From the NCBI GenBank assembly GCA_031213475.1, contig JARUPZ010000002.1, positions 5,713,049 through 5,777,048 of the forward strand: a stretch of DNA of 64,000 nucleotides, read 5' to 3'. The notes beneath the pieces were generated by a model. That model was given only the letters and a program-made list of their open reading frames with translations. It was not told the origin of the DNA and searched no databases. The position numbers and the translations under genes were made by a program. This document shows, one piece after another, positions 24,701-44,830 of this stretch. The stretch comes from Nereocystis luetkeana (Eukaryota > Sar > Phaeophyceae > Laminariales > Laminariaceae). The number at the start of each line of letters is the position of its first letter. Position 1 is the first letter of the stretch.

Positions 24701-27700
24701 CCCCCCCCCGAGCCGACTGACCGGGGCTTCAACAAACGCAGCCTCGGACGACCGAGACCCCCAGTAGTAGTAAACCATTGGCATACCCCACTCTCCTGGT
24801 GAGAGCCCCGAATCGCTACCAGTTAACCACAGACACCAATAAAGGTATAATACGGTGTGGCCAGCACCATGTGGCCGCTCCGTTCCACCCACCTTCGAAA
24901 GAAGAAAGGGGCGGGTGGGCAGGAGAAACCACAACAGTAGACCTAGCCTCTAGGCCTATCAATCGGCAGCGAGCAGTGCCGTGTTCTGCTTGTGCACCTA
25001 TCAGGAGAGCTACAGTAGGAGGGGGCACGGGACTAGTGTGGCCGTTCTTCTTTTCTCTCTGCCTCTGGGCAACTTAAGCTATTAGTTTTCCGTCGGTAGA
25101 GCCCATGACTATAAATAAACCATTGCGTCGGTTGTGAACTACCAGGTAAACAGGTATCTCACGTGAACTTAGAGATACTACGCATCATGGTTTGTGTATT
25201 TCTATGTGCTTCCGATACCATGGTTGATTAGAGCTGTAAGTGTATTCCCGATATCATGGTTGGTTATCACTCCATGTATGACCAGCATCGTGGTTGATTA
25301 GAGTTTGAAGCATGCCCAAGACAGTTCTAAGTTTGCCCAATGTTGCGGTTGATTAGACTTCCAAGTATGTCCAATGTCATTGTTGATGTCCAATGTCGCT
25401 GTTGATTATATTTCTAAATATTATGCCCAATATCATGGTTGATTCACGTCCTAAATATGTCCAACACCGTGGTTGGTTCCAGTTTTAAATATGCCCAACG
25501 TTATGATTGGTCTCAGGATGCCCATTATCGTGGTTGAGTAGAGTTCAAAATATGCCTGGTATCATGGTTAATTAGAGTTGCAAGTGTGCTCAATGGTGGG
25601 TTGACTAGACTTGTAGGTGTCCCCGATGTTATATGATTGATACCTGGTAGTATTTAGAGGTTTCTCATTGTCATGGTTGATTGGAGTATGTATGCCCAAT
25701 ATCATGATTAATTGTATTTTCAAGTATGCCCAACACCATGGTTGGATTAAGTTATACATACGGACAATATCATAGCAGATTCGAGTTCCAAGTATGCCAT
25801 GTCTGATTCGAGATGTAAGTATGCCCAATCTCATGGTTGATTTGAGTTTTAAATATGTCCGGTATCATGGCTGATTGGAGAGTGTGCCCAATATCATATC
25901 ATGGAGGATTATACTATACGTGTGCCCAATATCGTTGTTGGATCAAGTTAGTATGCCCAATATCGTAGTTAATTGGAGTTCTAAGTACGCCCAGTATCAT
26001 GGTTGATTTCTAAGAGTGCCAAATATGGTTGATTCAAGTAGGTATGCCCAATGTCATGGTTGGTTATATTTTCAAGTATGTCCAATCTCATGGTTGATTA
26101 GACTTGTAAGTACGGTCAAGATCATAGTTGATTCGACTTCCAAGTGCACCGATATCATGGTAAATCGAGTCAACGGGCGCACCGAATAGCGATGCTCCCA
26201 AGCAGGCACTCTCACTGTCAGCGGTCGGTTGTTTAGCCAGATCTGGGGTAGAAACGTCTAAGATACACGCTGTACTGTATAAGGTGGAATATGTACGTGT
26301 TTCCTCGCTCGAGTGCTCGCAATACTACTGTAGTTGAGGTAGAGGCTATTAAACCGGTTTCGCTTGAATCTCGTCCTGTTGTGATCCTATGCGATGAGGT
26401 ACATTTGAGCCCCCCTCGGAAACTACACTGTGCCTACTGATAACAGCAGGAAGGCGAAGTAGGCAAGGCGGCCTCTTACTTGCAGCAAGCCGTGTGCGTT
26501 CAAAGTTCGGAGTAAAAAACAAAAACGGTATCCCGTCGCATCCGAAACGCACAGCAGCACAGTCACCAAAACCACAGCCGCCGGGCGACCGCGACCACCT
26601 CGAGACGGAATGCCGCGAAACTACAGTGGTCTCGCGCGTTAGCCTAAACTCGCTCGCTTCTGTAGATCCGGGGTTTGTGGAAATCGGTCACCTATTATAG
26701 CTTTCGCAATCACTGATGATGCGAAAAAGCACAGGCAGACAGTACATAGTCAGTACACAGCTCTGTAATGCCTGTCTGCTTTTACTGTACATCATTGATT
26801 GCGAGAGCTGTACGTGGCCGATTTCCACAAAGCCGGCATCTATGGAAGTGGGCGGGCTTGGGCTAACGTGTGGGACTTGTTTCGTGGTACGACATCTCGA
26901 CCTGGTCGTGGTCGCCGGGCTGCTGTGTTTTGGTGGTGTGTTTCGATTGCGGCGGGATTCCGTGGCATTTAGGTCCGTTTCTTTTGTTCGAACTCACACG
27001 GTCTGCTGCAAGCATGAGGTCGCCTTGCCTCATTTACCTTTCTACTTGTAATGAGGCCGCTTTTCGCCTTCAGGCAAAGAAATCTTCATACCGGGGTGCG
27101 TACAGGCTTCCAGTATTGAATTAGCCTGTCTGTCTGTGTACTCACTGCAGTAGTACACAGCAGACAGACAGACTATTTCAGCAGTGGAAGCCTGAGCGCA
27201 CCCCGGTATGAAGAGGCTTTTTCCCCTACTATACGGGCAAAAACGGCCGCATTGAATATTTGTTCAGGTGTATAGACGGCGACTCTCTCCGATGACAATG
27301 CTGGTGCCTGCCATTTGCATGTTTGTTGTTTGGTCCTGTCGTGTGTCATATTCAGACGACGACATATTCTTCACCGAGCTTTACAAGGTGGACGAGCAGG
27401 GGACCGCTCAGTGGGAGTCTGACGGTGGGCTGTCGCCATACAGGCCACTGGAGAGCATCGAGGCGCCGTCGGCAGCAGTACCGCTGGGCCTTGCTTCTGG
27501 GTGAGTCCCCCTTTTTATTAAAATATGAAACTGCTGTCCGTTTCAGAGCGTTTTGAATGAGGTTCAAGTTATATGTGAGGTTTAAAAACATGTATTGAAA
27601 ACTGACCAACTTTGTCTTGAAAACGTTGTCAATCTCGTCTTGAAAACGTTGTTAAGCTCGTCTTGAAAATAGACCAAACTTGTCTTAAAAACGGGCTTTC

Positions 27701-30700
27701 TTTTACTACAACGCCTCCCTTGATTGAGCGCCAACGCTATCTCTGCTTCATGACGCGACCGATCATTTTTGTCAAGGTCGATCTCGAAGACCTTTTTTGT
27801 TCAAATGATCCTGCCTTATCTCGCACGGTGGGGTGGGCGGTAATCCGGTTATGTTCTGCAGCAGACTCATTGACGAAATATGCAGACAAAAGACTCGAAC
27901 TGAAAGAATTTCGACAGCATGCTGCAGTAGTAGTAGCGTTTATTCTACTGTTGGGGATAAATGCAGCTCAAGATAATATACCAAAACGTGTCCGGTCTAT
28001 TCGAACAAACATCAAACATAATTGGAACAATAAGATAGAAATATATCTGCCGCAACCCCATTTACTTGGTTTTATACTACATTACCGGTTCCAGTAAATA
28101 GCAGATTACTCATTTCGTACGTGAAACGAATTCGATGATGGAATTCGACAAACACGTGTAATCGGTGCTAGCAGAGGGCAAGGTTGCTTTATTGTGCTTT
28201 GGCAGTTGATTTTTACGTCCAACCGACTGGAAATGTGCGGGAAAGTGCTCGTATTTGACCCTAATGCGGAATAAACATTAATATTTGATTTGACTAGATA
28301 AAACCAATACGAGCCTTGCTTTCGGCAAGGAGTTTGTGCGCACTGCAAAGCAATCCGCTCCTGAAATCGATCCAGTCGCCGAGGAGAAAACCCAAACATT
28401 TTTCTTCCTCTTGAGTCACTGCTTCATGGCAATTTCGAGACAAAACTAATACCGCGACTAAAAGGGGACACGACAATGGACCTCGAGCCCAACCAAATAA
28501 CTTGTCTTCGTCTTATCGCGGCAGCGAAGGGCATTTATGATCAACCCTTGATTCAGGTCGCCCCTAGATTTCAGATGCGAAGGCATCACTGCTGTCTCAC
28601 GTGGGAAAACGTTGCCATATTACTATCTATCTCCGGAAATATAAGCACGGCTAAGCTATAAATGATAAGAGTACAGCATTCCTTACATCTCCGGGGAGAG
28701 TGGTAGGTACAAACTTTCAAGCCCAGCTGCACACACAGAAACAGCTCGCACGTGAGCTAGGGGTGGGGCGCGCTGCCACGAAGGTGCGGGCAGCGCCGTC
28801 GAACTCGCCGTTTCGGCGAGGTGCAGCATAGCAACACGCAGCCGGCGTCCATGGCTGTGGGTATGATATATTCTTATTGATTATACTTATCCAGCAGCAG
28901 CAAAACAGGACCAGATCTTGCGGCTCGATCTCTACGTATTTTACACAGGGGCGGCGGCATTATCGTGCTGCCGCCCGTCGGTCCCAAGGGGCCACCAGAA
29001 ACGTAGGTTTCGCTCACGCTCGCGCGTCCGTGTCTACGCTGCTGCTCTGTGCTCTGAGCCGCTGCGTACAAGAATCAAGGCTGAGTTTTGTTTTTGGAAC
29101 AGGTGGTAAAGTTGTTCGGGATGCTGCCCCACGAAGAGTAGCTTTTCAGTGGCGTGGTATGAACTTCCCTATCGCAGATTGGCTCGTTTCTTAAAGAGAG
29201 ATTTGATCTCAGTTATAACGACCACGGACCTATTTTCCTATAATTCTCCTACTTCTAAAACAAACAATTGTCACCCCTAGTAGTAATGAATAGCGGAGAA
29301 GGCGTGTCGCCGCCTATATGCGCATGCCTCCCGAACTCCCTTCCTGGAACCGCCTCCATAAAGTCTCGCGTCCAGGAAAAGAGCCGTCAACGCGACCGCT
29401 CTTTCCGAGGAGACGTCCTTCCTCATCGCCGCCAGAAGCACGAGCGTTCTCTTCATCGTCAACGCGGCAATGCGAGCGTCGCGTTGAGCGTCGCGTTAAC
29501 GGTGAATAACACGCTGGTTCTTCCGACCGCGATGGGGACGGCCTTCTCCAGGTAAAGAGCCGTGGCGTTGACGGCTCCATTTCTGGGCCGACAAGGTATG
29601 GACGCATTTCCTGGAAGAGAGGAAAGGAAGCATGCGCATATAGGCGGCAGGGTAACCCGGTTAGCAAGTGTCATAGTACGGGGCACCCATCCTTTGCGCA
29701 TGGGGGGCAGTGGCGAGTCGGAGTGGGGGTGGATCAGACACCACCGTTGGTGGCAGTCCGGCTGCGGGATCTAGTGCGCGACACGCGCCGACGAGAACGG
29801 CTGCTGCTCACGGCGGCAGAACGCATTGCAGTGATTTCGGTCGTGGCCATCTTCTGCGTGGCTGTCCACACAATGACGCGGGGTTTCGAGCTGTCGGTAG
29901 CGGTTGCGCCCCATGTGTTGCAGATGACGGGAAGCGAGGATTTCTTGTTCAGATTTTCCCGTTCGGAAAGACGTTACGAAGTTCCTCCTAAGCGGTTGTG
30001 GAAAGGAAAAACCTACACTGCCGCGAAATATTTGTGGTCGCAACCATGGACGAGTACCGACAGGTGGCAAGACCCAGGCAATGGTCACGCGCCAAGTGGT
30101 CAGAATTCCTATTCCCGAGCGTTCTAGAAGGCGGGGGGAGGAGGGAACTGGCGTTGACGCTGGAGCGATTTGCAAGTCCATGCAGAGCGTTCCCACGGGA
30201 CAATCGAAGCCGAATCCACTAGAGGTCAAGGTAGAACTTTGGGCACGATATAGACGGCAAGAACCCCGAAGAAAAGATATTACGAGACACATACCCTACG
30301 GCATCGAGAGAAGGGCGAAAAGAGAACAACTACTGTATGGGTGTTGACAGAAAGGCAACGGGACATCAAGTATGGGAGTGATATGATGCCGGAGCGGAGA
30401 GGCCTCATTGATACCATCGTTGTGCTCGAGACACACCGACAAGCACATCAACTTTATTTTGTACCTGGGGTTGTTTAACTTACCGGAGCGACTCCTCTCT
30501 GCGACGAGGTGCCGCGTTGATTACCACCGAATCAAAGCGGAGGTGGTAGTGCTGGGTGAGAGTATCCGGCTGATTGTAGCAGATAGGCCTCAATGATCCC
30601 AGTTTATACACCTGTTACGAATTAAGGCGGCGACGAAATGTTACAACAGTATTAATAGTAGCGGAGACGTGGCGTCACCGCCTTTATGCGCATGCCTCCT

Positions 30701-33700
30701 GACCTCCTTTCTTGGAAATGCCGCCATACCTTCTCGGTCCAGGAGTGGAGCCGTCAACGCCACGGCTCTTTACCTGGACAAGGCCTTCCCCATCGCGGCT
30801 GGAAGAACTAGCGTGTTGGTCACCGTCAACGCAAGCCGTCATGCTGGGTATTATACCGGCAACTACACACCTGCCAGTAGTGGCAGTTACCAGGTGAATG
30901 CACAGCAGCACCCGTCCGGTTCGGCTGATGTCGTTGTCATTCGCTTAGTCCTGGCCAAAAGCGCATGAACGGTACTACGATTAGAGCAACCGGAACCAAC
31001 GGCTAACTGCTTGATGAAGTAAAAAAAAAACTGTAGCATAGGGGGGCCTCCCTTGTCGATCATTGGATTGTAGGCCTTTTCGATGACGAGGTTTCAATGG
31101 ATGGCTTGGTATTGGCTCTTGCGGCAGCTACAGTTTGATGCACATTCATGTTGCCGTACAAACAGCTTGCCATGAACTCAAAACCCTCGCCTAATTCGAC
31201 CCCTGTTTCATTGATAGTCATCCATGCGCCTCGGAATGTACTCCAAATTTCGACTGGGAAGCTACGTATGAATAGGTCGGTTTGTTAAGACCCCAACGCA
31301 CCTCGAGCTTCACAGCTGAGCGTATGACGGCAGAGATCTTTCTCTTTGAACTGAACGATATCATAGGAATATAACTGCTGATCTTATCAGACACGAGAAA
31401 CGATTGTGTCCAACCGGAAACAACAGTAAACTGTACCTGGTAGTTTGGCTAGCGGCCATCGCATGATGCGACGGTTAACTGTTACTTATTATATGGTGGC
31501 CCCATGCTATTTTACCAAGTATGTTCTGAAATGATCAGGTGCTATCCTGCCAAGCATGTTCTGAACTTATCTCGTGTTTTGTTTTGCGTTGGCAATTCAA
31601 CGCCTGGCGTGTTATCGCGTACCACGAGTGGAACGCATTGAACCCGCACGTATAAGTACGTACCTGATAGAGGTAATTACTGTTAAATCGTGTCCTCTGA
31701 AGTACGAAGGTTCAATATGGCCTTCATTCAGTATCCGCTATTATTAATAGTGTGAAATCGTTTCCTCTTGAGATCTAAAGAGGCCTTCAGTGCGAGATAG
31801 TACTAATGATTCCGGGCCCTTGCTATTAATAACACTTCGTGCACATGGCTCCATCACTCCATCACTCCGCTGCAGGCGTCGGTGACACAGCTACTGCCCG
31901 GCGGGCTTGAGGCTAACTTTTGGGACAACCAGGGACTACTCGGTGCACCGGTCGTTCGCAGAGTCGATCCCGAGGTGAGGTGGTGATGGTGGTGGTAACG
32001 CTCGATGGCTACTGTAGATGGACTATCATTGCGAAGGGGGCGTTGTGCAGAGAGTCCTGATGGTGGCGTGGTGGGGGGTACGAGATCGTCTGGCGTTGCC
32101 ACCTACCGTAGTACACCCCCCCCCAACACAACAGCAAAAGCCCACCTGTTACATACCCTGATTCAACCACAGAAGCGCACACCTAGTACACACCCGAACA
32201 CAACGGCAGAACAATTGGGTGTCATAGATCAAGCTCTACCTTACTGGCTCTTCAAGCCCTTGCAATTATTTTTCCCTGCACATTGCCACAATCGCAAGCA
32301 ATAAACGTCACAGTCCGATTGGGTACATCCATGTGCTCTTGCTCGGTGACGTTCTATTTATGGGACACTGCCCGAGACTTCTGTGTCATTTCTTGTGGCA
32401 GAGTATTGGGATAAAGTAATGTTTGCACAGAATCCCGATTACCGTTGAGTCTCTGCACGGTAGTACAATAGTCCGACGCATCGTGTGGACGTGTTTATCT
32501 CCTACATGAGCGGCGTTTGGACGTCTGTCACAATATAATTTATAGCATGCTGAGTGTTGTCAACATTTCCGTTTCTACCCCCGTTGGAAACGTTACGGTT
32601 CAAAATCAATAAGTCACAATCCGTATCAACCTGGGCCGCCATCCCTAAGTAGCTTAGAACGCCTCCCCAACCCAAATAAAAGCCACTGCATCTATCAATA
32701 GGGACCATGATCAGATATACGGACTTGCTTCCAGACATTTTGGCCTGTGGAAGAGGTGGTGTAGTTTACTGTACTCGCAGTATTTGCCTACGGTGCGTAG
32801 CCTTTCTATACTATTGAAACATTGAAGCCAGCTATGCTAGATTTCGACAAAGCCTCCCTCCATGAGAAATATGTTTCATCCATTCTCCCGTGATCAGGTA
32901 TCGTTTAACTGGGGATTCGGCGCGGCAACGCCATCCGGCCAAGGTCCAGTCTCTGCGCGATGGGAGGGCAAGCTTCTCGCTCCTGCGAGCGAGACCTTCA
33001 CGCTCTTCATCAGGGCCCACGGCGGCGTTCGGCTCTTCGTCGACCACCTTGTCGTCATCGACGCGTGGGCAGGTGCTTGCTCCCTCCGTGTTTGTCGGTG
33101 CTTTTGTTAGAAGGGCGCTGTTAGTTCGCCCTTTCAGAACTGCAAACATCATCCTACATTGATTACAAGTACTTTGGCCCCAAAAAAGTGAATGCAAATC
33201 TGAAGGCAATATCAGCAGTACTCCGTCGTCTTTGGCGGTGGCAGTAAGGGTCCCGGTATAAGGCGATCTTATTACGCCGACATCTCGATATAAGGTCGTT
33301 AAAACCTAAAACTGCTGGGCACGACGGAAACCCGCTCTAAGGCGGTGATCGCCCTATCGAAGGCTGGTCCTTCTATAGGGCGGGCCTACCGTCATATTAA
33401 GAGCGGTTGAGGCCTCCATATCTGCTATACGGTGGTATTCCACCAGTCAGTCGTCTTTGGCGGTAACAGTAGCGGCGGTATTGTATGGCGACGACTATGT
33501 ACAGTTTGGCAACTTGAGCAGTGGTAGACGGGTGACAACGATGCATCGGCGTGATGAAGGCAGAGCTATGTGTGAACGTGTGCTCTGTGCTACCGTACAC
33601 GTTATCGTATCGGATCCATACGTAGCTCGGGCGACGATAAGCGAAGTTTCCTTTGTCATGTGTGTACATGTTCTCAAGCGGCATCCGGCCACGAAGCATC

Positions 33701-36700
33701 CCTTCAATCTCTACGACTGCCATACGGGAGGGAACGCCCTACTCCATTACGTGATTTTGTATGCTTATATAGTACCCGGTATTTATTTTTCCCAAAAATC
33801 GGGTTGAAACCTCGCACCTTTCTGGGAATGCTCGGTATGGTGTCTTATTTATAGCTGCCTGCCACAACAGTATTTTGAGCCTTTGCTATGATAATTAAGT
33901 GCCTGTCGTGATCACTCATTACTTTGTATGATGCAGACGTGAAATGATATCCAGAAGAGCACATTGTACGTATGTATACCCAGAATGTATACCTACTACC
34001 CGGTACCCGCTGTTCGTGCGTGCATATTGTCGTGTACTTTTGTGTTGTTCAGGCAACCTCCGAGCGCCCAAGGAACGGCTTGTCCCAGTCGACCTCGTTG
34101 CAGGCAGATACCACGACGTCAGGTTGGAGTACAGACGTACACAGGAGCCGTCCAGCATCCAGGTTAGTTGGTTCTACGGGCTACCTATCGCGTTGTTCTG
34201 TACAGGGACAATAATAAAATAAGAGGGTCCCTCACAGCATGTGGAGGCTTCGAGATTTTGGGTCGTCAGCACGATGTCACCGCGGCCAGCAGCGCTAGAG
34301 CTTGCAACGCCCCAGCAATGATGAGTGCCCAACGTATGATGACGATGCGTAATTTCAGTACCAGCTGCACTTATAACGCTTCGAGTCTAACAATGCGCGC
34401 CGCATGCCAGCAATAGCGACTGACAGTTTCGCTGTGCCTCGTGTGCCTGCCCTATGTTCCCGCCCGGTTGGACTGCAGATGATGTGGGCAAGTGCAAGCG
34501 TCCCCCCCTCCGTCATTCCGTCATCTGCGTGGTATTATGCCACGCCGATCGCCGGGTCTCCCTTCGACATCAACGTTCTTCCTCGTGAACGTGACGTTCG
34601 GCACGCCAACAGCTTCGACGCGGAGGGGTTCAGCCCTGCGCTCGCCAAGGTTAAGGACCGCCCCCACGCTACACACGCGAAGGTGTGTACCGCGTCTCAT
34701 GCTCGTGTCAGGTATTGCTCATGTAGTGATTTGTCGAACGTGAAGATACTTGGAGACTTGGGATTGTTGCCGCAGAGGCAGTTGGATTTCGTTTTCAGAA
34801 TATTGCTGACGATTGGTATTGCATCTTGATTTCATCAACGTCATAGATGTCGAACCCGCTTGAGCTACCTCGAACACTCGTCTCTTAGCTTCCTCGGGTA
34901 CCGCTCCAGGCATCAGCGTCGTGTCATGATAGTTGCCATTTACGGTTGAGCTACGTACTTTATGACCAGAAGCTGTTTATTGTCGATAACAATCATAGTA
35001 ATAAAATGACGACTTTACCAAGTACTATGACGGCAGGACTTACATCTACTTGCAAATCGAGGCAGTTAGAGCTGCGAGTGCGATCGTTTTTGTCCATGCG
35101 CGTGCCTGCTTATAATTTTGAGTTTCCCCTCACTTGGAAGGGGTTTTCTCCGTCTTATTCTGCCTTGTCGTGAGTTTAATCCCTAAATATTCCTTCGAAC
35201 GGGTTCAGGTGTTGATTACGTTAAAGGAATTTCGACAAGAACACGAACTAAATTGCGTGACGCCGTGTTAGGCACTGACAGGATTTATGAGCACGCTGTC
35301 TTCTGTCGTTATCAGAGGGCAAACAGAGGACAGAAACGGACTGCAAACAAGAAACACGCACGTGACGAACTTGATCGTAAGAATTGGATGACCTGTCGAC
35401 AATGTCCATGAGTATATGCTGCTTGGCACCTGGTACCTGCGGGTTAATACCAACAATCCCGCTGCGCCCTGTGCACCTATTCAAGTATGCTACCGCCCGA
35501 GAGCGCTGCAGATGCTGTGGGCCCGCGGAAATGCCCCCCCTTGGTATTTTCGCCACCAGCTTTGTACAGATACCTCCCGCCAGTACCTGGTAAATGCCTG
35601 CAAGCGAAACCCAACTGCCTCTACCGCAAGTCTACGGCAAGTTTACGGCAAGTCACAAATCTCCATGCAAATTCGCGTTTAACACGTAAGGACCGCATAA
35701 ACGTGGAGTGCGGTACACCAGTACACGCCTACGCCTGTGTGTAGTTCGTATCTTGGGTGTGCTCATTGGCCTTGGCGAGCGCGGGGCTGAAGCCCTTTTC
35801 TATGTATATATCGTTAGCGTTCCGCAAGCCGAGTTCACGAGGAAGAATGTTGCTTTCGAAGGGAGATCCGGCGATCGGTGTGGCATAATACCACGCAGAT
35901 GGCGGAATGACCGCGGGGGGCACAGTTATGCTTACCCACAACATCTGCAGCGCAATACGTATGTTTTTTCGGAAAACATGCATGTTGCGCTGCGGATGTC
36001 GTGGGCAAGCGTATGTGTGCCCCGCGCGGAAATCCCACCGGCCGCTTGGTTCTATGCGGCACCGATCGCCGGAACTCCTCTCGAGATTAACGTTCTTCCA
36101 CGCGAACTGGACTTGTCGAACGCTAGCAATATCATACAGAGAAGATTTAACCCCGCGCTCGCTAAGGCCAAAACCAAGGAGCGTACCCTAGCTGCGAACT
36201 CTACACAGGCGTAGGCGTGCACTGCTGTACCGCGCCCCATGTGTATGCGAGAGAAAAGTTTCTTGCGACACGTGTAGTTTCAAAGATTTTCGTGACTTGC
36301 TGAAGACTTTCCATAACCTCGCCATAGATTCGCTGGAGGGGTTCTCGGGTTTCGTTTGCAGGCATTTGCAGGCGAAAGGTCTCCCTCTTTTTTCAATTAA
36401 GGCCTGGTACTACATACGGACCCCCCTTGAAATATTGTGAGTACTCACCTGTTCGTTTGCCAACCTTGGCCGCGTCCGTTTCATTGACGACGAGCGTGTC
36501 GAAGGTGAAGGCCATAGGATCGACGCCCTGAGCCACCATAACCTTCCCCACCGTCGGGTTGGGCGTCGCACCCACCATAACCTGGAACAAACTAAACCAG
36601 TTAGACATAGCATGAATGGAAAACTGCTACGTGTAGTAGGAGCGACAAGCCATACATTGAACACGCCTGGACGCTGTTGACGAACAATCCTACTAGGTTT

Positions 36701-39700
36701 TCGTATCGTTCACGGACGCACACTATCCTGTATTTTGCACCGTTGTTACCGTACAGGACCCTCCCGCAATGGTATCATCCAACATGACGCTGACCACGAC
36801 CGCTGAGAGTCTGCGACCGCCGTGGCCTGGCCCAGCGCTCCTTGACGAGCCCGTGTCCTGGTAAGAAACTATCGCCATTTGATAAGGAAGCACTATTCAT
36901 TCACAGAATACGGACGGTAGGTACCGCTCGTTCGCAGAATACGGACAACTACTTCATAACATATGGTTGCACGCGAAGCGCGGCAGATATAATACGTAGC
37001 AGTAGCACTGAGTGAGTCTCGTGCGTGCGCCAGTGTTCCATAACAAACGTGCCAACATGTGAGCGGAGTCGAGTCTTCCTTCCTGCGCTTCATGCACGGA
37101 GGAAGCCACTCGAATATTGATGTCTCCACCATGCTGCATCGTCTGTGTTACCTTGCCCGGCCATTTTCCTCGGTGATGGTCGGTTTGGTTTCGTAAATAC
37201 GGAGGCCAAGCATGCAGCCGCCGACCTGCAACAGACGCCCACATGCTCTCTGTCCTCCCTGATACCATACCCTTCGAAATTACGGTTTGAACAGTCAATA
37301 GCAGAAATAATCACCCAGTGCCTTGCCCACAGGCCACCAGAACAGGAAGCCTGTTCACCGTTTGCAAGGATGTGTATCCACAATGGACTCTGCCCCCCCT
37401 CGTCAACAAACTGTGCGCTTCATCCCTTCATCCTGTACATAAACCGTGTATAGGGAGGGCGTTCTTGTGGCCCCGGCCGACTCCGGAGCTTCCTCGCGTG
37501 GCTTACACGTCCGTTCCTCCTTCTCCCGCATGATTGATGGCACCATGGTCGGTGGTGGTACGTGGACGCTTCCGCCTGAGATGGAGACGAACATGACAGA
37601 AGTGAGTGGGAAAGGAATGCATGTGCCAAGAATGGCGTGAGCATATATCATGCCGTCGGACGAGTGATGTAGAGCTTGGAACCGCGCGTTTAGGGTTCAC
37701 GTATTTTTTCTGGTGTGGCATGTTCGAAGAAAATGTACCCGTTTCTGTTTCGTTTTGATAAGAGCGGCGATTGATATAGCAGACCCGCGCTTTCAGGCAG
37801 GTATATTGATATAGAGTAGCCTACAAAGGCAGCTTGCTCGAAAGTTGGACGGAAACGGCTGTTGGCTTTCCTCCTCCTCTTTTTCACCCGAAGAAGCGTT
37901 CCTCCCTCGCGTATTTTCACATCAAAATTGTCTGTTTTGCCAGGGCGACAGCGAAATACCGCATGTTAAAATAGGTTGCATCGAAATGAAGCAGAAGACG
38001 TAGGGATCTCTGAGGTGACTGGCTAGTAGGTTGTGTCAACCGCGTGTAGTCCGCGCCAGTAGCGACCACGAACCATGTGGTAGGCGACCACTACAAAAAC
38101 CATAATTGAGATAAAGTACACTTCACAGGGCCTTTCACGATCATACCAATTTCGCGACTCCGATGTACCTGGTATGTATACTCCACAGGCTCTTCCCGAA
38201 GCCGAGCCTGGGGCCTTGATCCCGCGGTTCTCTACAGTCGAGGACTACCCCCAGACGCAGGCTCTTCCTGATGCCGACTCTAGAGCGTTGGTCCCTTGGG
38301 GGGTCTCTCCCCACAAGGGCGACCTTCTGACTCGCGCTCTCTCTCACGCGGAGCCTGGAGCCGTAGTCCTATGGGTCTCGCAGGAGGCCGTAACAGCCTA
38401 TTCGTGCTGCTACAAGTCGACCTACAGAGTACAACACGGCCTGTATGGGTGGGAACGGTGAGCGGTGGTTGTTGCGAAACGCGTGCGAGACCCCGACAAG
38501 CGCTTGTGGCTGATCAAGCTTGAATGGTGTTGCGAAAAGAGTGTACGAGACTCCAATTTACGTATTGTTAGCTGTCAAGATTACGTACACCCAGTGCGTT
38601 TAGTCTAAAAGGGGTGATCGCCTGCCCACGCCAACTAGTCACGAGCAAAGATTAAAACATAGGAACATATGAATAGTTCTATGAGTAAAGGCGACTGCGT
38701 TAATTTCACCAGCTGTATAACCTTCGTCATTGATGGCGTCTGATACTGCAAGGCGGCCACCGTTGCTCGGAGTTCTCCCCGGATGGTGCCAACTCATCTG
38801 GGATGCCGATGGAGCCCCCGTTTGCACAGACACCAAATGACATTACCCCCGCCCACCCCAGCAGCAGAGGTGCTTTGTAAGAAATGGCGCCATCTGAATC
38901 GTCGCACCTCGTGTACTCGTTAGCTTCCCGGACAGATAGTCGAGTATTTACTACAAGGTATGTACGTACACTGTTAGGAGTTTTGTTGGTGTTTGGTCTT
39001 GAAAACGTGCTTCCAACTATTAATACTACTGTTGGGGCAGCGGCATCGTTTTTAAGGCTCAAGCTGCATGATACCTGGTGTAAGATGTATTGGTACGTAC
39101 TGCCATAAGTACCTCACACTACCTGATGAAGTTACCGGATATATATATACCCCTGGTATGCTAGTGTTGGATATACACCGGAATATTTGTGAATGCCTAT
39201 TATGTTTCAACATTTTTAGTGAGAGTGCAACAGATGTGGCATCTGTCGACAGAGGCGAGCATCCCCTAGGACAGAAGAAAGGCAAGAGTGGTAACGCCGC
39301 AGAGATTATCTGATGCGCAAGCCGTTGTGCTGTGTTTGCCCCTGGCAACTTTACCGCAGGCACCTGTTCGACGCATTTCTGGCTGCACGCTTTGCACGTC
39401 GGACTGCGAGCGCGTTTGACTATCTGCCCCCCACGGCAGAGGCATCCGGGGTTCTCACCGATCCAGCGAGGGCAGTAGAAGCATCGCACAGCATCGTTGA
39501 GACCCCGGCGTCGGTGAGCAATTGATTCTTGTTACTGTAGCCCCTTTACACCTGCGACGCCGTTTTGGGGGATATTTTGCTTGGAATTCGAGTGGATGGT
39601 GTTCTTGCAGTGGTCACTTGGGTTAACCATGCTTTGTGGGGTTTTCTTGCAGTGGTGGTCACTTGTGCGTTAGTTCTCCCAGACGAGGCGATAGAGAACC

Positions 39701-42700
39701 CTGACATACTACCGTACCGCCACATGTTCCACGTGTTGTATGAGCAGAGGGTATTTTACACACCGTCTGACTGCCTCTTACGGAACAAGGAAAGGCCTTA
39801 AGCAATTGGACACACTATTATTGACGTTTTCCTCCTCCTGTGAACTCCTCTGAGCCTGCCTGTGGGCTCTTTCTCCTAGGTTCTCGCCTAGCTCCCGCTC
39901 GAATAGTCTCTTCAGAAAACTAGTTTCGGAATCTCGAATATCAAATTCACACAATCCCGCCGCCTGGTAGGGAAGGGAGGGGGCGTACCCATTTGTTGCT
40001 TCCGTTAGCCATTTCACGGGGCGGGAGGAGAGTGTACTCGATATCATGCATGGCCGTAGTAGTACGATCGTAGTCCCTCGCATCTTTCACCAACCAGGCA
40101 GATATTGCGTGCATCAAGCGCGAAGCGCCGAAGGGTGTTCGGCGAGTCGCATGAAGGGTGGGCTGCATCCTACTGAGGACAGCTTGAGAGACGGACCAGG
40201 AGGGGTAGTTTAAATATACGTTGTAGATTGAAACATCCGCGTGGCTGGCGCAAGCCTGACATGACCGTGGGGCTGCTGCTTCTGAGTGAAGTCAGTTTTT
40301 GTCTCAGAATCCTGCCCGTGCCGAGTATGATAAAGAAATTGACGCAAGCAACCTCGTGCAGCTACCATGATCGGACGGATGCCAGGAGGTGCCCACAAAG
40401 TAACTGCAAGTCCGTTTGTTGCACTACATCGGGGCAAGTCGTTGTGTCTGATTCGGCCTTAATAGCGTGCCCCAACGCCCTTGTATCATTGTCTCCGATC
40501 CCGCTGTTAAAAAGTACCCTTATACATGGTTGACCATTCCATGGGCCTTCGAAACTCGCCATAATTGGGCATCCACTCTTGCCGACACTGCTCTCTCTCC
40601 ATCTCTCTTTTTCTCTCTCGCAGCAAGAACCCTCACCGCACGAAGCGCTTATTGTGGAGGCTGGGGGCTTGACTTCAGCCACAGACGACGACGACGCGCG
40701 TGCAGGAGATCGTGCCGTCGCTTCTTCGCCGCAAGGAGTGCCGACAGCTTTGGCCAACGATGTACCGGTGGCACAACCTACGAACCGCGAAGAAATCGAC
40801 TGGGCTGAAGAGGCGGCACGCTTGGCCTACGTGGCAATCAGAGCCCTGATAGCATACGCGTGGGTTTCACGTTGTCACCCTCCAGGCACAAACATGTTGA
40901 CGGGCTGGTGGCTCGTCTGCTGGCTCCAGCTGACATCTTCCCGGCACATCAATGGTCTCTTGGCGGCGTACACGTGGCCCACCATACGTTTGCTGGTGAC
41001 GCTGGCGTGGAGTGTTGGGGTGGTCTTTGTTAACGTCATCCAAAATGTTGCCATTACGACAATTGCTGGCTGCGTGGTGGGCGTATACGCCTATGTCAAG
41101 ATCTGGCAGGCCGATAACATCTTGGAGTCGGACAGGTACGTTACAAACTTGAACGGCGCCATTTGAGCCGCAGACTAGAGCGCAAACCCTTACAACGTAT
41201 CCGCAGCAAGACTTGGACGGATGTGCTGTTGTGTTTTTGACATGTTGCTGCAATGTTGTCACCGAGCGGGCAAGAGGAGCCCTCATAGCAACCACTCTCA
41301 GTGGGTGCAACGGTAGTGTAGCTACGGGTTGGCGAATGTCAGATGACAGTAACGATACCGTCCGTGCCACAGGCTTGCCTTGGCGAAGAAGGTTTGGGTC
41401 TATAAAAGCAGCCGACACGGCGGAGATATAGAACACACGCTTGACAGCAGTACATCTTGTCGCCTGTGTACATGTAACAACATTCGTCCCTCGTAATTGT
41501 TTTTGGCGTACGAAACCGTTTATTTTTCCTTGGGAAGAGAAGGCGCTCTGCTGGCTGCGTGGCTAACCGACGGGGGCATATTTTCACCCCCCTCGCGTAC
41601 CCTGATTGGTGCCATTCTTCCGTGTGCGCGCGGCTAACCGAGAGGCCCTACCTCGCCCCCCTCGTGCGTGTACCCTGGCATGTGTCAATTTTCCGTGTTT
41701 GATTGTTTGATAGCCTTCACGCTGAAGACGACTTAGGGCGCATGAAGCCATCAGAACAGGCACCAGCACTTCCAGGGGCCTCGTCGCAAGAATCGCTGAC
41801 AGCAACATCACTCCCGCTCGAGTCGGAACAGGCACCAGCACTTCCAGGGGCCTCGTCGCAAGAATCGCTGACAGCAACATCACTCCCGCTCGAGTCGGAA
41901 GTAGCGACTGAGGCGGGAGAAGGTTGCAGCGGACGCGCGGGATACGACCCCCCTGACGATGATAAACCCGAGCAGTGTAGAATATGCTCAGAATGCATCT
42001 GCGCGTGCAAAGGTATGGGGGCGACTTCATCCGCGGCTACACCGATGCCACCAGAACCACCAAATGTGTGAGGGGTATCTGCCAGCCCCTGCCCTGCCGC
42101 CGTAGCCGCTATCGCCGCCTGCCGGAATAATATTTTTCGTGAACATGAGGTGGGTTTGATATGGATCAGGCTGGAATTGGGGAACAGGTTTGCGTTTAAT
42201 CGGAATGGATGGATATAGTGGATTTGATCGAGATCATCATTTTGGTTGAGGGATGTTTTCGGGTAACAGAGAATATGCTAATTGGAGGAGACAATTAGTA
42301 TCACGTGCGAGTGAGCAGTACTGTAGTTCACGTGACAGATGGATAACCGATCATTAACGCAAACGTGCTAGTGTTTGCATTGTTTTGGAAGATGTAGTAT
42401 CCAGTTAAGAACTACCTGGGGAGAAAGACCCACCGACAAGGCTAGGCTCGACTGGCGTCGGGCGTAGCCAGGGCAAGTAAGGAATCTAGGTGTATCGCCG
42501 GTAATCTTCACCCTTTTCGGCGGATGAGTGGTTACAAGGAGAAAGGGAGAGGGGGAGGGATAGAAGGAGAGAGGGAGGGAGGCGGGGTGGAAGGGGAGGA
42601 GGGCGAGTGGAAGGGAGGGGAGGGTAGCTTCGGTGTTGTTTAGGGTAGAATGAAGGAATAGGTTTGCGCGCAATCGAATGGGCAGGACTAGGTGAAGTCA

Positions 42701-44287
42701 AAGGGATCACTAATTGATTGGAATATGCTTTCGGGTAACAGAGAACATGCTAATTGGAGGAGACAATTCGTATCACGTCCGAGTGAGAAGTAGTTGACGT
42801 GACAGATGGATAACCGAGCATTGACGCAGTCGTCTGAGTAAACCCGCTGTTTTAGGAGATTTTGTATCAGTTCAAGATATACCCTGGTATAGTTTTTGAT
42901 GTCGCTGACGTCTAGGCGGGGGAGTGAAAGGCTTGCCAACAAGGCTAGGCTCGCAAAGCGTCTGACACGCGCCTTAGTTTTCCGTCTGTCTGCTGTATGG
43001 TAGCCGGAGGCAGAGATTAAGCAAGTGACACCCATGTGACATGTACAGAGTTGGTACGAAGTATATATACAGTCCAACATACAGTAGATCGGAGTACGCT
43101 TGTGGGGAACCTCGGTCCCAGGCACGCGGTATACAGCTAGAAAATAGCAGCAAAACTGTAGGACGGTGACCCCGAGAGGGACGTTTGGAGGGCTCAGCAG
43201 TAGGTTGCAACAGCCGGCAGGTGGTTGTCTCGACGCCTCCCTTAGGTTATCAAATCAGTGTACCGAATTTTACTCGCGTCCACCTGGATTCGGGTATATA
43301 CCGTGCTGCATGTCGTTCGGCCTTCCTGTCGATAGTCTGGCGATATCGTGACCTCGAGTACTGATTGCGTGTTTTCATTATTGTTTGGCCTTAGGCCAAT
43401 TCTTACGCGGTTCTTTAGTTTTCAAATCGATTCGAGCTTTCTAGCCAATCACAAACGTGTTTCGCTCGCTTAACGATCGACTCGACCGTGCGCTTCTCGG
43501 CATGGGTCTGCTTACTCTCCGAGAGGGACCCAGCTCCAAATTCCGCTTCTCCACCGGCGCACTCCAAATTGTTGCCGACTACCTGGTAGGCAAAATCTCA
43601 CCCAAAAAATCTGGAGTAGCTCCATATTAAAATGCGCCGAAATTTTCGGGCGGAGGACAGCTCCAGATTATTTCCGTCGAGTTATGTACCGTAGGCAAAA
43701 CTCGGACTACGGTTCTGGAGAAGCGAGTTTTTGAGCTGGGTACCCCTCTTAGGAACTCTGGACTCGTTCCAAGAAACGTATGGCTGATTCCGTCCGGGTA
43801 CCGGTCGAAATCGCACGTAAGCCACAGACGGGACAAAATCGAACCGAAAACCAGATCCTCATATGAATTACCCTTACACTGATAGACGCCTATAGCTCAA
43901 CAGGTTGGCGCGATTTCTGGGTACTGTAGGTAGCTGCTTGCAGAGTGGCGGGTGGCCACCTCCGACACGTTCGGCTTGTACGCACTCATCGAGCTGTTTT
44001 CGTTTCGCGAAAAAGCTGACTCGGCAGTAACCCTTGTCCAGAGCATGAGTGTCGAGCGTGTGTGGAGGATGTGCCATGTCGTATACAGGGTCTTACAGAC
44101 TATCCGACTAGGGGGACGTCAACAGTTTGACTTTCGCCTGTATAGTCTCCGTTTTCGATGTGTTTGGTCTTTGTTCTGTACTCAGTACTGTACCTGGCAA
44201 ATGTATACGAGTAAGTTGTGGCCGCCACGATGTTTTTCGCTAGCCCCGACTAAATGTATTACCTTTTATAATAATATTACGCAGTAG
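18736..44287 (+). CDS. Filamin-repeat / PA14 cell-surface protein with membrane segments
   Basis: Phase-consistent exons: 18736-18906, 23173-23310, 23926-23989, 27356-27500, 30743-30893, 31876-31974, 32898-33072, 34053-34162, 34479-34649, 36757-36860, 37454-37601, 39322-39513 (uncertain), 40624-41135, 41714-42012 and 43944-44287, about 940 residues. A short N-terminal hydrophobic stretch may be a signal peptide. Exons 2-5 encode a filamin-type immunoglobulin repeat (VATGGGLDNG, FQIFAYTDDG, YYTGNYTP, SGSYQ). Exons 6-9 encode a PA14 domain beginning GGLEANFWDNQ, with FNWGFG, RWEGKLL, RLFVDHLVVIDAWAG and a WASASVPPSVIP-type end; PA14 domains often bind glycans. Exon 40624-41135 has about three hydrophobic spans (residues about 622-722), and the following exon is an acidic/Ser-rich tail with a 24-residue perfect duplication. 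This suggests a cell-surface adhesion or recognition protein; no ligand can be named. The 5' exon's membership and the 3' end are least certain. GT sites at 44081 and 44090 could continue the gene. Confidence 0.68.
18907..23172 (+). other. First large intron (4.3 kb) of the filamin/PA14 gene
   Basis: The intron is mostly non-coding. It holds a GTT-rich microsatellite (18928-18972), a cluster of TACCTGGTA/TACCAGGTA motifs (19016, 19053, 19251-19266, 19280, 21476), several TATTAATA sites, and a possible exon with heptad repeats around 21685-21922 described separately. No transposon open frame was seen. Confidence 0.55.
21685..21922 (+). CDS. Possible exon with four 21-bp coding repeats (unassigned frame)
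   Basis: GC-rich island in an AT-rich intron with a candidate acceptor (ACCGATAG at 21684) and donor (CGGACAG|GTCAGT, exon end 21922). All three frames are open over the repeats. The most protein-like frame gives an acidic stretch, then four heptads (TSATFGE, TSATLDK, SPTTLGK, SPATLGN) from 21780 to 21863. That frame ends in phase 0, which suits the next exon at 23173, but starts in phase 1, which does not suit the phase-0 end of the exon at 18906. Either an exon is missing or this is not part of the gene. A minus-strand reading (Arg/Ser-rich) is less likely. Confidence 0.35.
24218..26165 (+). repeat. Degenerate intronic minisatellite, about 36-40 bp unit, in two blocks
   Basis: Many imperfect copies of a unit resembling TATGCCCAATATCATGGTTG followed by ATTAGAGTTCTAAG. 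Blocks run from about 24218 to 24590 and about 25150 to 26165. They are separated by about 550 bp of unrelated sequence that looks inserted into the array. Spacing between the CATGGTTGATT cores varies from about 30 to 60 bp and substitutions are frequent, so the array is old. It lies in the 3.4 kb intron of the filamin/PA14 gene. Confidence 0.85.
24591..25149. other. Non-satellite insert splitting the minisatellite
   Basis: GC-richer stretch inside the satellite, with a C9 homopolymer (about 24700) and no coding signal I trust. The sharp change from satellite to non-satellite on both sides suggests insertion of a repeat or a segment spared by satellite growth. I could not find convincing terminal repeats or target-site duplication. 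Confidence 0.4.
26663..26842. repeat. Foldback hairpin 1 (arms about 55 bp)
   Basis: Left arm 26663-26720 and right arm 26788-26842 are imperfect reverse complements. The best-matching core is TTTGTGGAAATCGG against CCGATTTCCACAAA, with TCGCAATCA(C)TGATGATG against its complement nearer the loop. The loop also carries partly complementary CAGGCAGACAG and CTGTCTGC stretches. Intronic. Confidence 0.8.
27084..27213. repeat. Foldback hairpin 2, nearly perfect nested palindrome
   Basis: Outer arms CTTCATACCGGGGTGCG and CGCACCCCGGTATGAAG continue inward through AGGCTTCCA / TGGAAGCCT. Inner arms are CCTGTCTGTCTGTGTACT and AGTACACAGCAGACAG, around a centre near 27148 (CACTGCAGT). It lies about 140 bp upstream of the exon at 27356 and 240 bp after hairpin 1, and shares the CAGACAG/CTGTCTG inner motif with it. 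Confidence 0.88.
27610..27694 (+). repeat. Short tandem repeat of about 24-27 bp, four units
   Basis: Four successive copies of a (T/C)TTGTCTTGAAAACG-type unit with small changes (TTTGTCTTGAAAACGTTGTC, CTCGTCTTGAAAACGTTGTT, CTCGTCTTGAAAATAGACC, CTTGTCTTAAAAACGGG). Located in the intron after the 27356-27500 exon. Confidence 0.8.
27695..29307. other. Intron sequence without recognisable gene
   Basis: Part of the 3.2 kb intron between the exons at 27500 and 30743. Open frames here have no family resemblance and no paired splice sites. A small hairpin (CTCGCCGTTTCGGCGAG) lies at about 28805. Confidence 0.5.
29308..29648. repeat. Palindrome built from two inverted copies of the filamin exon at 30743
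   Basis: The left arm (about 29308-29472, plus orientation) and right arm (about 29648-29489, minus orientation) are both homologous to 30675-30830. Homology covers roughly 70 bp of upstream intron (CGCC-TATATGCGCATGCCTCC in both arms), the CAG acceptor area and the exon region encoding AVNATALYL-K-PIA-GRTSVL-TVNA. The minus copy keeps the frame well (AVNATALYLEKAVPIAVGRT). The plus copy is frame-broken. Copies stop at the same point in mid exon, and no donor is included. Because intron sequence is included, the copies arose at DNA level, not from mRNA. Confidence 0.88.
29710..30590. other. Unassigned coding-like stretch in the intron before the filamin exon
   Basis: GC-richer DNA with overlapping open frames on both strands (29723-30127 plus; 29771-30292 minus). 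I do not recognise any protein family. It lies between the exon-derived palindrome and the functional exon, and could be an old mobile-element or gene fragment. No terminal repeats seen. Confidence 0.3.
30894..32897 (+). other. Introns flanking the first PA14 exon (31876-31974)
   Basis: Apart from the 99-bp exon the stretch is non-coding. A diverged direct repeat pair lies at about 31684-31730 and 31751-31795 (AAATCGT-TCCTCT...GGCCTTCA), with TATTAATA sites nearby (31739, 31822). Confidence 0.5.
33073..34052 (+). other. Intron within the PA14 domain
   Basis: Non-coding. GTCGTCTTTGGCGGT occurs twice (about 33226 and 33450). Between the copies are several TAAGGCG/CTATAGGGCG segments reminiscent of terminal repeats of small DNA transposons, but I could not define element ends. 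Confidence 0.4.
35500..35570 (+). pseudogene. Decayed direct copy of the last PA14 exon
   Basis: GCGCTGCAGATGCTGTGGGC retains the acceptor and first codons of the exon at 34479 (QM-WA), followed by a shortened and diverged block (CCGCGGAAAT...CCCCTTGGTATTTT) matching the plus-strand copy at 35996. About 60 bp can be aligned, and the rest has been lost or has diverged. No donor site remains. Confidence 0.55.
35702..36236. repeat. Palindrome built from two inverted copies of the last PA14 exon
   Basis: The left arm (35963-35702, minus orientation) and right arm (35978-36236, plus orientation) are reverse complements over about 260 bp with a 14-bp spacer. Each is homologous to the exon at 34479-34649 plus intron on its 3' side. 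The minus copy reads WVSITVPPAVIPPSAWYY, then ATPIAGSPFESNILPREL. The plus copy reads WASVCVPRAEIPPAAWFY, then AAPIAGTPLEINVLPREL. Both stay open through ALAK and then run on to a stop (TQA-stop), because the GTTAAG donor of the original is GCCAA- in both. The minus copy keeps the CTGCAG acceptor; the plus copy has CTGCGG. Confidence 0.9.
36449..36581 (-). CDS. Orphan exon on the opposite strand inside the filamin/PA14 gene
   Basis: Minus-strand reading: acceptor TTTGTTCCAG ends at 36582, donor CGAACAG|GTGAGTACT at 36448. The 133-bp exon (phase 0 in, phase 1 out) encodes VMVGATPNPTVGKVMVAQ, then GVDPMAFTFDTLVVNETD and AAKVGKRT. Codon character is clearly coding and both splice sites are strong. 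I do not recognise the family. No partner exon is visible; the minus-oriented PA14 exon copy downstream (35983-35729) also starts in phase 0, so the two do not join directly. It may be a fragment of a duplicated and inverted gene, or a nested gene whose other exons I cannot see. Confidence 0.55.
37602..40623 (+). other. Intronic region with one uncertain exon (39322-39513)
   Basis: The stretch is mostly non-coding. The uncertain exon ends at a good donor (GCGTCG|GTGAGC) in phase 0, fitting the next exon at 40624, but its acceptor is weak. Other frames across it contain Cys-rich stretches that may derive from an ephrin-receptor-like repeat. An imperfect internal repetition of CAGGCTCTTCC(C/T)GA-GCC lies at about 38205 and 38260. 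Confidence 0.4.
41754..41897 (+). repeat. Perfect 72-bp tandem duplication in the coding tail
   Basis: Units 41754-41825 and 41826-41897 are identical at every base and encode two copies of a 24-residue Ser/Ala/Pro/Glu-rich segment (EQAPALPGASS, then QESLTATSLPLES). They lie in the predicted cytoplasmic tail, in the exon 41714-42012. Being in frame and in multiples of three, the change lengthens the tail without disturbing the frame. Confidence 0.93.
42237..42960 (+). repeat. Direct repeat pair of about 240 bp (42237-42480 and 42720-42960)
   Basis: Both copies contain TTTTCGGGTAACAGAGAA, TGCTAATTGGAGGAGACAAT, ACGTGACAGATGGATAACCG, and AACAAGGCTAGGCTCG or its close variant, in the same order with small indels. 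Between them lies a purine-rich tract (42540-42640). Situated in the intron between exons 42012 and 43944. Confidence 0.85.
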
Positions 44288-44509
44288 TGGTTGTGGTCGA
44301 AGCGAAGTTTTGCCACGACTTTTGTGCAGAGACGGTTCGACTCGGGGGAAAAAAATGTTGTTTCGGGCGTAGACCAATATATAGGGTACGTTTTGTTTTT
44401 TTATCGTGCCTTTCAACTGTGGCCGTTTGCCCTGCCGAAAGACCGGATGGCGGGGAGGGGTGAGGGGGGGCAGAGGCCGTAGTAGGGCGCGAAAATTACC
44501 ATTTTTATA

Positions 44510-44830
44510 AGTTAGGCGTAGCCGGGGCAAGTATGCCTTCTAAGGGTATCACAGGTACTCCTCACCCTTGCGGGGATGGGTTGATATAGGGAGGAGGAAA
44601 GGAGGGAGGGGAACAGGAAGGTAGAGGGAGACTGGGGAGCGGTGGGGGAAGAAAGAGGGATGGGAGGCAGAAAAGGAGGGGGGGGAAGGCAGGCAGGGAG
44701 GGAGGCAGGCAGATAGGGAAGGTAGAGACCCTGCCAACGTGGCTGCAGAAGCACGTTGAGTTGAAAAAATTGCGCAGTGGTATCCTGGTCACTATCACAG
44801 GAGTTTCAGACCCGCTAGCGCATGGTGTAG
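44510..44830 (+). repeat. Inverted copy of the last intron of the DUF3172 gene (purine-rich tract)
   Basis: The purine-rich tract 44570-44735 and the following block (CCCTGCCAACGTGG, GCACGTTGAGTTGAA, TTGCGCAGTGGTATCCTG, ACAGGAGT) are the reverse complement of 16640-16870, the pyrimidine tract and adjoining intron before the last DUF3172 exon. The leading part (GTAGCCGGGGCAAGTA, TCACCCTTGCGGGG) also resembles 42465-42530, so the tract seems to belong to a small dispersed repeat. Confidence 0.8.

Follow-up and report, generated by a model that had tools for sequence, protein, structure and literature searches.

The window analysed here is a stretch of 64,000 nucleotides (C2:5713049-5777048) in a 465-Mb eukaryotic genome, and its plus strand carries a PA14-domain gene whose recognisable exons, ending with the one that we call E, are listed in Table 1 together with the other features of the locus. 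When E is joined to the exon preceding it, the product matches PA14 positions 95-144 with 21.7 bits, just below the Pfam cut-off of 24, and alignment to the C24 paralogue suggests that E contains the last PA14 strand and the start of a filamin-type repeat. Its acceptor is CTGCAG/ATG. The first-pass annotation ended this exon at 34649; the homologous exons at C20:2293843 and on C24 point to 34682, so the donor is probably GCGAAG/GTGTGT at 34683 and not the one at 34650. Related genes lie at 9.86 Mb of C24, at 2.29 Mb of C20 and, as ten near-identical copies, at 5.73-6.29 Mb of C20. These ten PA14 gene copies (C20:5727163-6287414) form two opposed blocks, four on the minus and six on the plus strand, and 3.1-kb stretches are 97-100% alike inside one block.

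The filamin repeat of the C24 gene is prolonged by an exon-like frame that lies about 2.5 kb beyond the E-like exon, and the two joined together match PF00630 (E-value 2.3e-9). A search with this continuing frame against the 264 kb around the window gave no significant match (best E-value 0.40), a filamin search of the whole genome gave seven matches with none in the window, and no exon was recognised 3' of E at the window gene. The window gene may be truncated after E. Since no exon is recognised 3' of E, the palindrome to which this paper is devoted, placed inside the gene by the first-pass annotation, may sit 3' of a truncated gene and not in an intron. Just past the palindrome, an exon-like open frame on the minus strand (36449-36581) has the apparent splice sites TTCCAG/ and ACAG/GTGAGT, and a genome search with it matched only itself and its mirror copy. 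Elsewhere in the window, the minus strand of 3639-7856 is open for 1406 aa; the whole protein matches BRCT at 1.5e-7, and no single stretch of it passes alone. A search against Rfam gave no match in the window.

Table 1. Features of the locus; positions are those of the window unless a contig label precedes them.
Feature	Position	Strand	Remark
Older inverted duplication	25966-44680		Against C2:5655378-5668790; pieces 68-93% outside the near-identical tract, main ones 77-93%
Second palindrome of the locus	29309-29648		Inverted copies of part of the frame 30678-30908
Source of second palindrome, exon-like open frame	30678-30908	+	Without Pfam match
Recognisable exon of the PA14-domain gene	about 31873-31980	+	
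PA14 core exon	32877-33071	+	PF07691 positions 24-85, above Pfam cut-off
Near-identical tract holding E, D, L and R	33541-40014		99.15% to C2:5660318-5666785, inverted
PA14 exon preceding E	34053-34162	+	PF07691 positions 95-133, 21.9 bits (cut-off 24); homologous in paralogues
Exon E, source copy	34479-34682	+	Homologous exons at C20:2293843, ten C20 array copies and C24:9864329
D, truncated direct copy of E and upstream intron	35453-35566	+	Corresponds to 34423-34534 of E; local alignment
L, inverted arm	35592-35968	-	Exon part 35944 down to 35735
R, direct arm	35972-36367	+	Exon part 35996-36208

When the window was compared with itself by BLAST, the segment 35592-36367 matched its own reverse complement at 70.7% over 803 columns (E-value 2.65e-109), and E (34473-34690) aligned in reverse to 35950-35721 with 76% identity over 230 columns. 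Both results agree with the proposal of the first-pass annotation that the palindrome is made of inverted copies of E and that its arms resemble this exon. The two copies, L on the minus and R on the plus strand, lie head to head near 35970, as had been stated, and both carry E plus its downstream flank. The remaining details of the earlier description, a near-perfect palindrome with arms of about 260 bp and a 14-bp spacer, have to be revised: the two arms measure about 377 and 396 nt, the loop of the folded RNA in the helix list is 3 nt (35969-35971), the ungapped inner arms of 160 nt with 5 nt between them are 77% complementary, and the full-length arms agree at 277 of 369 aligned bases, their alignment having 25 gap columns besides. 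Gap columns excluded, E agrees with L at 241 of 324 aligned bases and with R at 212 of 329. L shares one exact match of 22 nt with E; no exact match between R and E reaches 12 nt. When E, L and R are arranged as a tree, 52 sites pair E with L and 55 pair L with R. The bases at the centre between L and R do not align to E. A further copy, D, is truncated (local alignment score 50.5, the highest among 200 shuffles being 28.5), and it retains the CTGCAG acceptor in a frame disrupted by a 1-nt gap; its junction with L is blurred by divergence. The order along the plus strand is accordingly E(+), D(+, truncated), L(-) and R(+). A genome search with one arm (35702-35960) found at least six places, all of them E, L, R or their mirror copies.

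Concerning the coding state of the arms, the earlier observations that both copies are open over the exon region and that both have lost the donor in the same way proved correct. GC stands in L and R for the GT of E at the equivalents of both 34650 and 34683, and R has in addition lost the AG of the acceptor, reading CTGCGG where E and L read CTGCAG. The frame of E is free of stops for 70 codons in L and 71 codons in R up to the donor-equivalent point, both arms end alike in GCG TAG with the stop at the same place, and the indels among the exon parts of E, L and R preserve the frame. By eye, neither arm has a pyrimidine-rich stretch ahead of the exon. The GC donors and the lost acceptor of R speak against a functional duplicate exon; L keeps its CAG.

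The values of dN/dS are 0.36 for L-R (core 0.31), 0.20 for E-R (0.19) and 0.51 for E-L (0.43). Among changes unique to one copy, 2 of 11 are synonymous in L, 16 of 36 in R and 13 of 31 in E, the expectation for random change being a share of 0.23-0.27; the unpolarised count for R has p=0.009 against 0.25 and p=0.047 against 0.30. In a wider alignment with outgroups, the corresponding counts are 17 of 46 for R and 3 of 15 for L. Only 5 of the 25 changes placed on R by the outgroups are synonymous, a count that is biased against synonymous sites because these are near saturation in the outgroups, and 6 of the 10 changes common to L and R relative to the outgroups are synonymous. Most of the L-unique changes alter the amino acid, and L looks neutral. 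The mixed pattern of R would fit constraint during an earlier functional phase, and some coding constraint acted on the lineage, perhaps before the palindrome arose. Taken together, the lost splice signals and the substitution pattern suggest that the arms once coded and probably no longer do.

The same structure is found a second time at a mirror locus 84 kb away in inverted orientation. The tract shared by the two loci is about 6.5 kb long, with 56 differing columns over 33541-40017; the mirror copy of the palindrome (C2:5663962-5664737) shows five differences across 35592-36367, and the exon E protein is identical at both loci. On one side the flanks of the tract have identities of 89.6%, 85% and 77-78%, and on the other side the pieces are mostly at 86-93%. 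The mirror copy is without the part of the window at 27981-33540, which carries the first PA14 exons. Because the 99% stretch sits between diverged flanks, we infer that gene conversion between old inverted paralogues is likely to have homogenised the tract; a separate recent copying of the 6.5-kb piece may have taken place instead.

The palindrome built from E is not the only one of its kind at the locus. In the second palindrome the plus arm is frameshifted and the minus arm is open, and its source frame by eye resembles a filamin-type repeat; a (+)(-)(+) trio occurs twice at the locus, from two exon-like units. In both trios the inverted arm is nearer to the source than the direct arm (83% over 143 nt against 72% over 124 nt, and 86% over 155 nt against 78% over 187 nt) and is still in frame. 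The gap from source to inverted arm, measured at the BLAST edges, is 1031 bp in both trios, which is probably a coincidence. Palindromes are frequent in this 264-kb region: 15 self-palindromes were found, six of which span at least 300 bp, including the one described here and its mirror. In each of five randomisations of the region that keep local dinucleotide composition, the number was zero, and a chance origin of the palindrome was rejected on this basis. Scans of seven paralogue loci on C20 and C24, covering 3-8 kb at each, turned up no palindrome built from an exon, so in this sample the process is not a general property of the family; one of the seven, L033, has two short palindromes elsewhere. 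Regarding other palindromes of the region, 26445-27046 belongs to a dispersed repeat family with at least 121 matches (40 of 264 candidates scored), and C2:5804051-5804811 is a palindrome of 761 bp at 82%, whose translation resembles by eye what we take to be tRNA-derived SINE sequence.

A long stem in the transcript, expected by the first-pass annotation, is supported by calculation: the predicted MFE of the 776-nt plus-strand RNA is -482.1 kcal/mol, while 20 shuffles average -257.2 (sd 6.4; z -35.3), and the predicted fold has uninterrupted helices of up to 21 pairs. This strong predicted fold arises because the arms are inverted copies and needs nothing more. It is nevertheless unlikely, in our judgement, that the palindrome is a natural hairpin-RNA locus, which would be transcribed and diced into small RNAs that silence the parent gene or family. 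The exact 22-nt match between L and E would in principle let small RNAs made from the stem recognise the exon, and a small-RNA pathway is plausible since the genome has PIWI-domain matches (five pieces at one locus) and one RNase III match; in D. simulans the inverted repeat at ODox does make siRNAs against Tapas, according to PMC10317233. However, only about 75% of the aligned arm bases agree. In a comparison with three paralogous loci (C20:2293843, one copy of the C20 array and C24), the longest exact match of the arms was 11 nt, so that the family as a whole does not stand out as a target. Selection for pairing in the plus-strand transcript should favour differences between the arms that still permit a G:U pair, but the arm transitions are 27 that leave such a pair and 25 that do not (p=0.89, 52 transitions in one genome), and the mirror copy, taken on the same chromosome strand, has 23 and 29. 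Strong selection on the hairpin was rejected on this lack of bias, and selection on it is therefore not shown; weak selection could escape the test because it has 52 transitions in one genome. The comparison of source and inverted arm in the second trio gave 8:4 (p=0.39), and none of six other palindromes was significant in the G:U test, the lowest value being p=0.073 for 26445-27046. The view that the stem is kept for such a silencing purpose is not supported. An action on splicing or on the transcript end, in which L would hide the splice sites of E, R would compete for L, or R would serve as an alternative last exon, also seems improbable to us. The predicted duplex energies of E:L and R:L are close (-322.7 and -318.9 kcal/mol), the E:L match spans both splice sites of E, and the common stop of L and R and the synonymous share of the R-unique changes would be in line with such a role. 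Against this stand the lost acceptor of R, the lack of a pyrimidine-rich stretch before the exon in either arm, and the E:L transitions, which show no significant bias in the narrow (15:8, p=0.21) or the wide comparison (25:19, p=0.45). Bacterial promoter and terminator patterns are no more frequent in the palindrome than chance would give, and in a eukaryote they carry little meaning.

The remaining alternatives concern the origin and use of the copies themselves. The mirror exon copies might be inverted silent cassettes, acting as donors for conversion or inversion that diversifies the expressed exon. In a wider form of this reading, for an arrangement seen at two exon-like units of the locus, the gene family would keep mirror exon copies next to the working exon as a variant store, spread or renewed by conversion between an exon and its mirror arm or a gene and its inverted paralogue. 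The cassette reading is favoured by the inverted arm being nearer the source and in frame in both trios and by the conversion-like tract of 6.5 kb that spans the locus. We give very little credence either to the cassettes or to such a store: sites shared by E and L cluster only weakly (p=0.049 for the exon alone, p=0.11 over the complete alignment), the protein of exon E is the same at both inverted loci, and a single genome shows no variation. Conversion from E to L within the trio, suspected from sliding identity, is not claimed in view of the same clustering values. A transposable element with long terminal inverted repeats that has captured the exon is highly improbable. The shape is like that of a foldback element, and the nearby palindrome 26445-27046 is a member of a repeat family, but the search with one arm matched solely the two inverted loci, homology to the flank of E reaches near the arm ends, and no target-site duplication is seen by eye at the palindrome ends. 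The candidate of a dispersed, foldback or MITE-like transposon was thus rejected, as the arm search found no copies at unrelated loci among its at least six places. Inverted arms are also a classical artefact of assembly or library construction. A fold-back read or misjoined haplotypes can hardly be the source here, however, because the arms differ at about one fourth of the aligned sites, unlike the product of a fold-back read, and because the second locus has the same structure with its own few differences; we regard an artefact as so unlikely that it can almost be set aside.

The explanation that we prefer, and consider probable, is that a local inverted triplication by template switching left the palindrome behind, and that this remnant is now mostly neutral. 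The PA14 exon and its flanks would have been copied forward, backward and forward again, giving D, truncated, L and R next to E, most likely by replication template switching as in the models of fold-back synthesis, tandem inverted duplication or ODIRA. The copies would then have lost their splice signals and drifted, mostly without coding constraint, and gene conversion with the inverted paralogue 84 kb away would probably have homogenised the whole tract at a later time. A triplication is favoured because the copies stand in the order (+)(+ truncated)(-)(+) with L and R meeting at the 3-nt loop, because the arm is, as far as searched, not a dispersed repeat, all places found being at the two inverted loci, and because the locus has a second (+)(-)(+) trio in a region with frequent self-palindromes. 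The neutral state is favoured by the loss of the donor in both arms and of the acceptor in R, by the low synonymous counts for the L-unique and the outgroup-polarised R changes, and by the lack of G:U bias. Some results count against this explanation: the synonymous share of the R-unique changes in either alignment, the L-R dN/dS of 0.36, the frame-keeping indels, the nearly even split of the E, L and R tree, and the lack of an exon palindrome at the seven paralogue loci.

If the triplication is accepted, the locus is a clear case, in a large eukaryotic genome, of inverted triplication on a small scale and of probable conversion between paralogues in opposite orientation, and the G:U asymmetry of the arms gives a simple test that can tell an RNA hairpin under maintenance from a relic. 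The locus would show how exon-derived hairpins begin if the cassette or the siRNA reading were true. Our literature searches found nothing that joins inverted antisense exon duplication, intron and template switching and nothing on the PA14 domain in Ectocarpus; among publications on the PA14 domain, filamin and brown algae, no title pointed to exon palindromes.

Several known systems can be compared with this palindrome. Plant miRNA genes are said, in work by Allen and colleagues from 2004, to originate from inverted duplication, and the likeness lies in inverted copies of target gene sequence; in contrast to those genes, the present palindrome shows no sign of selection on the fold. Drosophila hpRNA loci are alike in having an inverted repeat homologous to one exon that could give antisense small RNAs, and for hp-ODox of D. 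simulans PMC10317233 describes an inverted repeat with about 200 bp of homology to Tapas exon 2 and siRNAs against Tapas. The present palindrome differs from what is described there in having diverged arms and in adjoining its source exon. For the VIM4-VIM2 inverted repeat of Arabidopsis, in which gene copies form a palindrome at a locus that varies in structure, PMC13213937 gives measurements of both read-through transcripts and siRNAs, and whole genes are involved there, against one exon here. By analogy, an siRNA function as in flies and Arabidopsis would be possible but is unsupported. The closest likeness in copy order and junction is to the inverted triplications, which, according to PMC4689423, where they are treated together with ODIRA fold-back models, consist of three copies, the central one in inverted orientation, and have a palindromic junction that leaves hardly any spacer. 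Compared with these, the copy here is very small (about 0.4 kb), is old and is accompanied by the extra truncated copy D. We read the palindrome as the probable relic of a small inverted triplication, set inside multi-layer inverted duplications.
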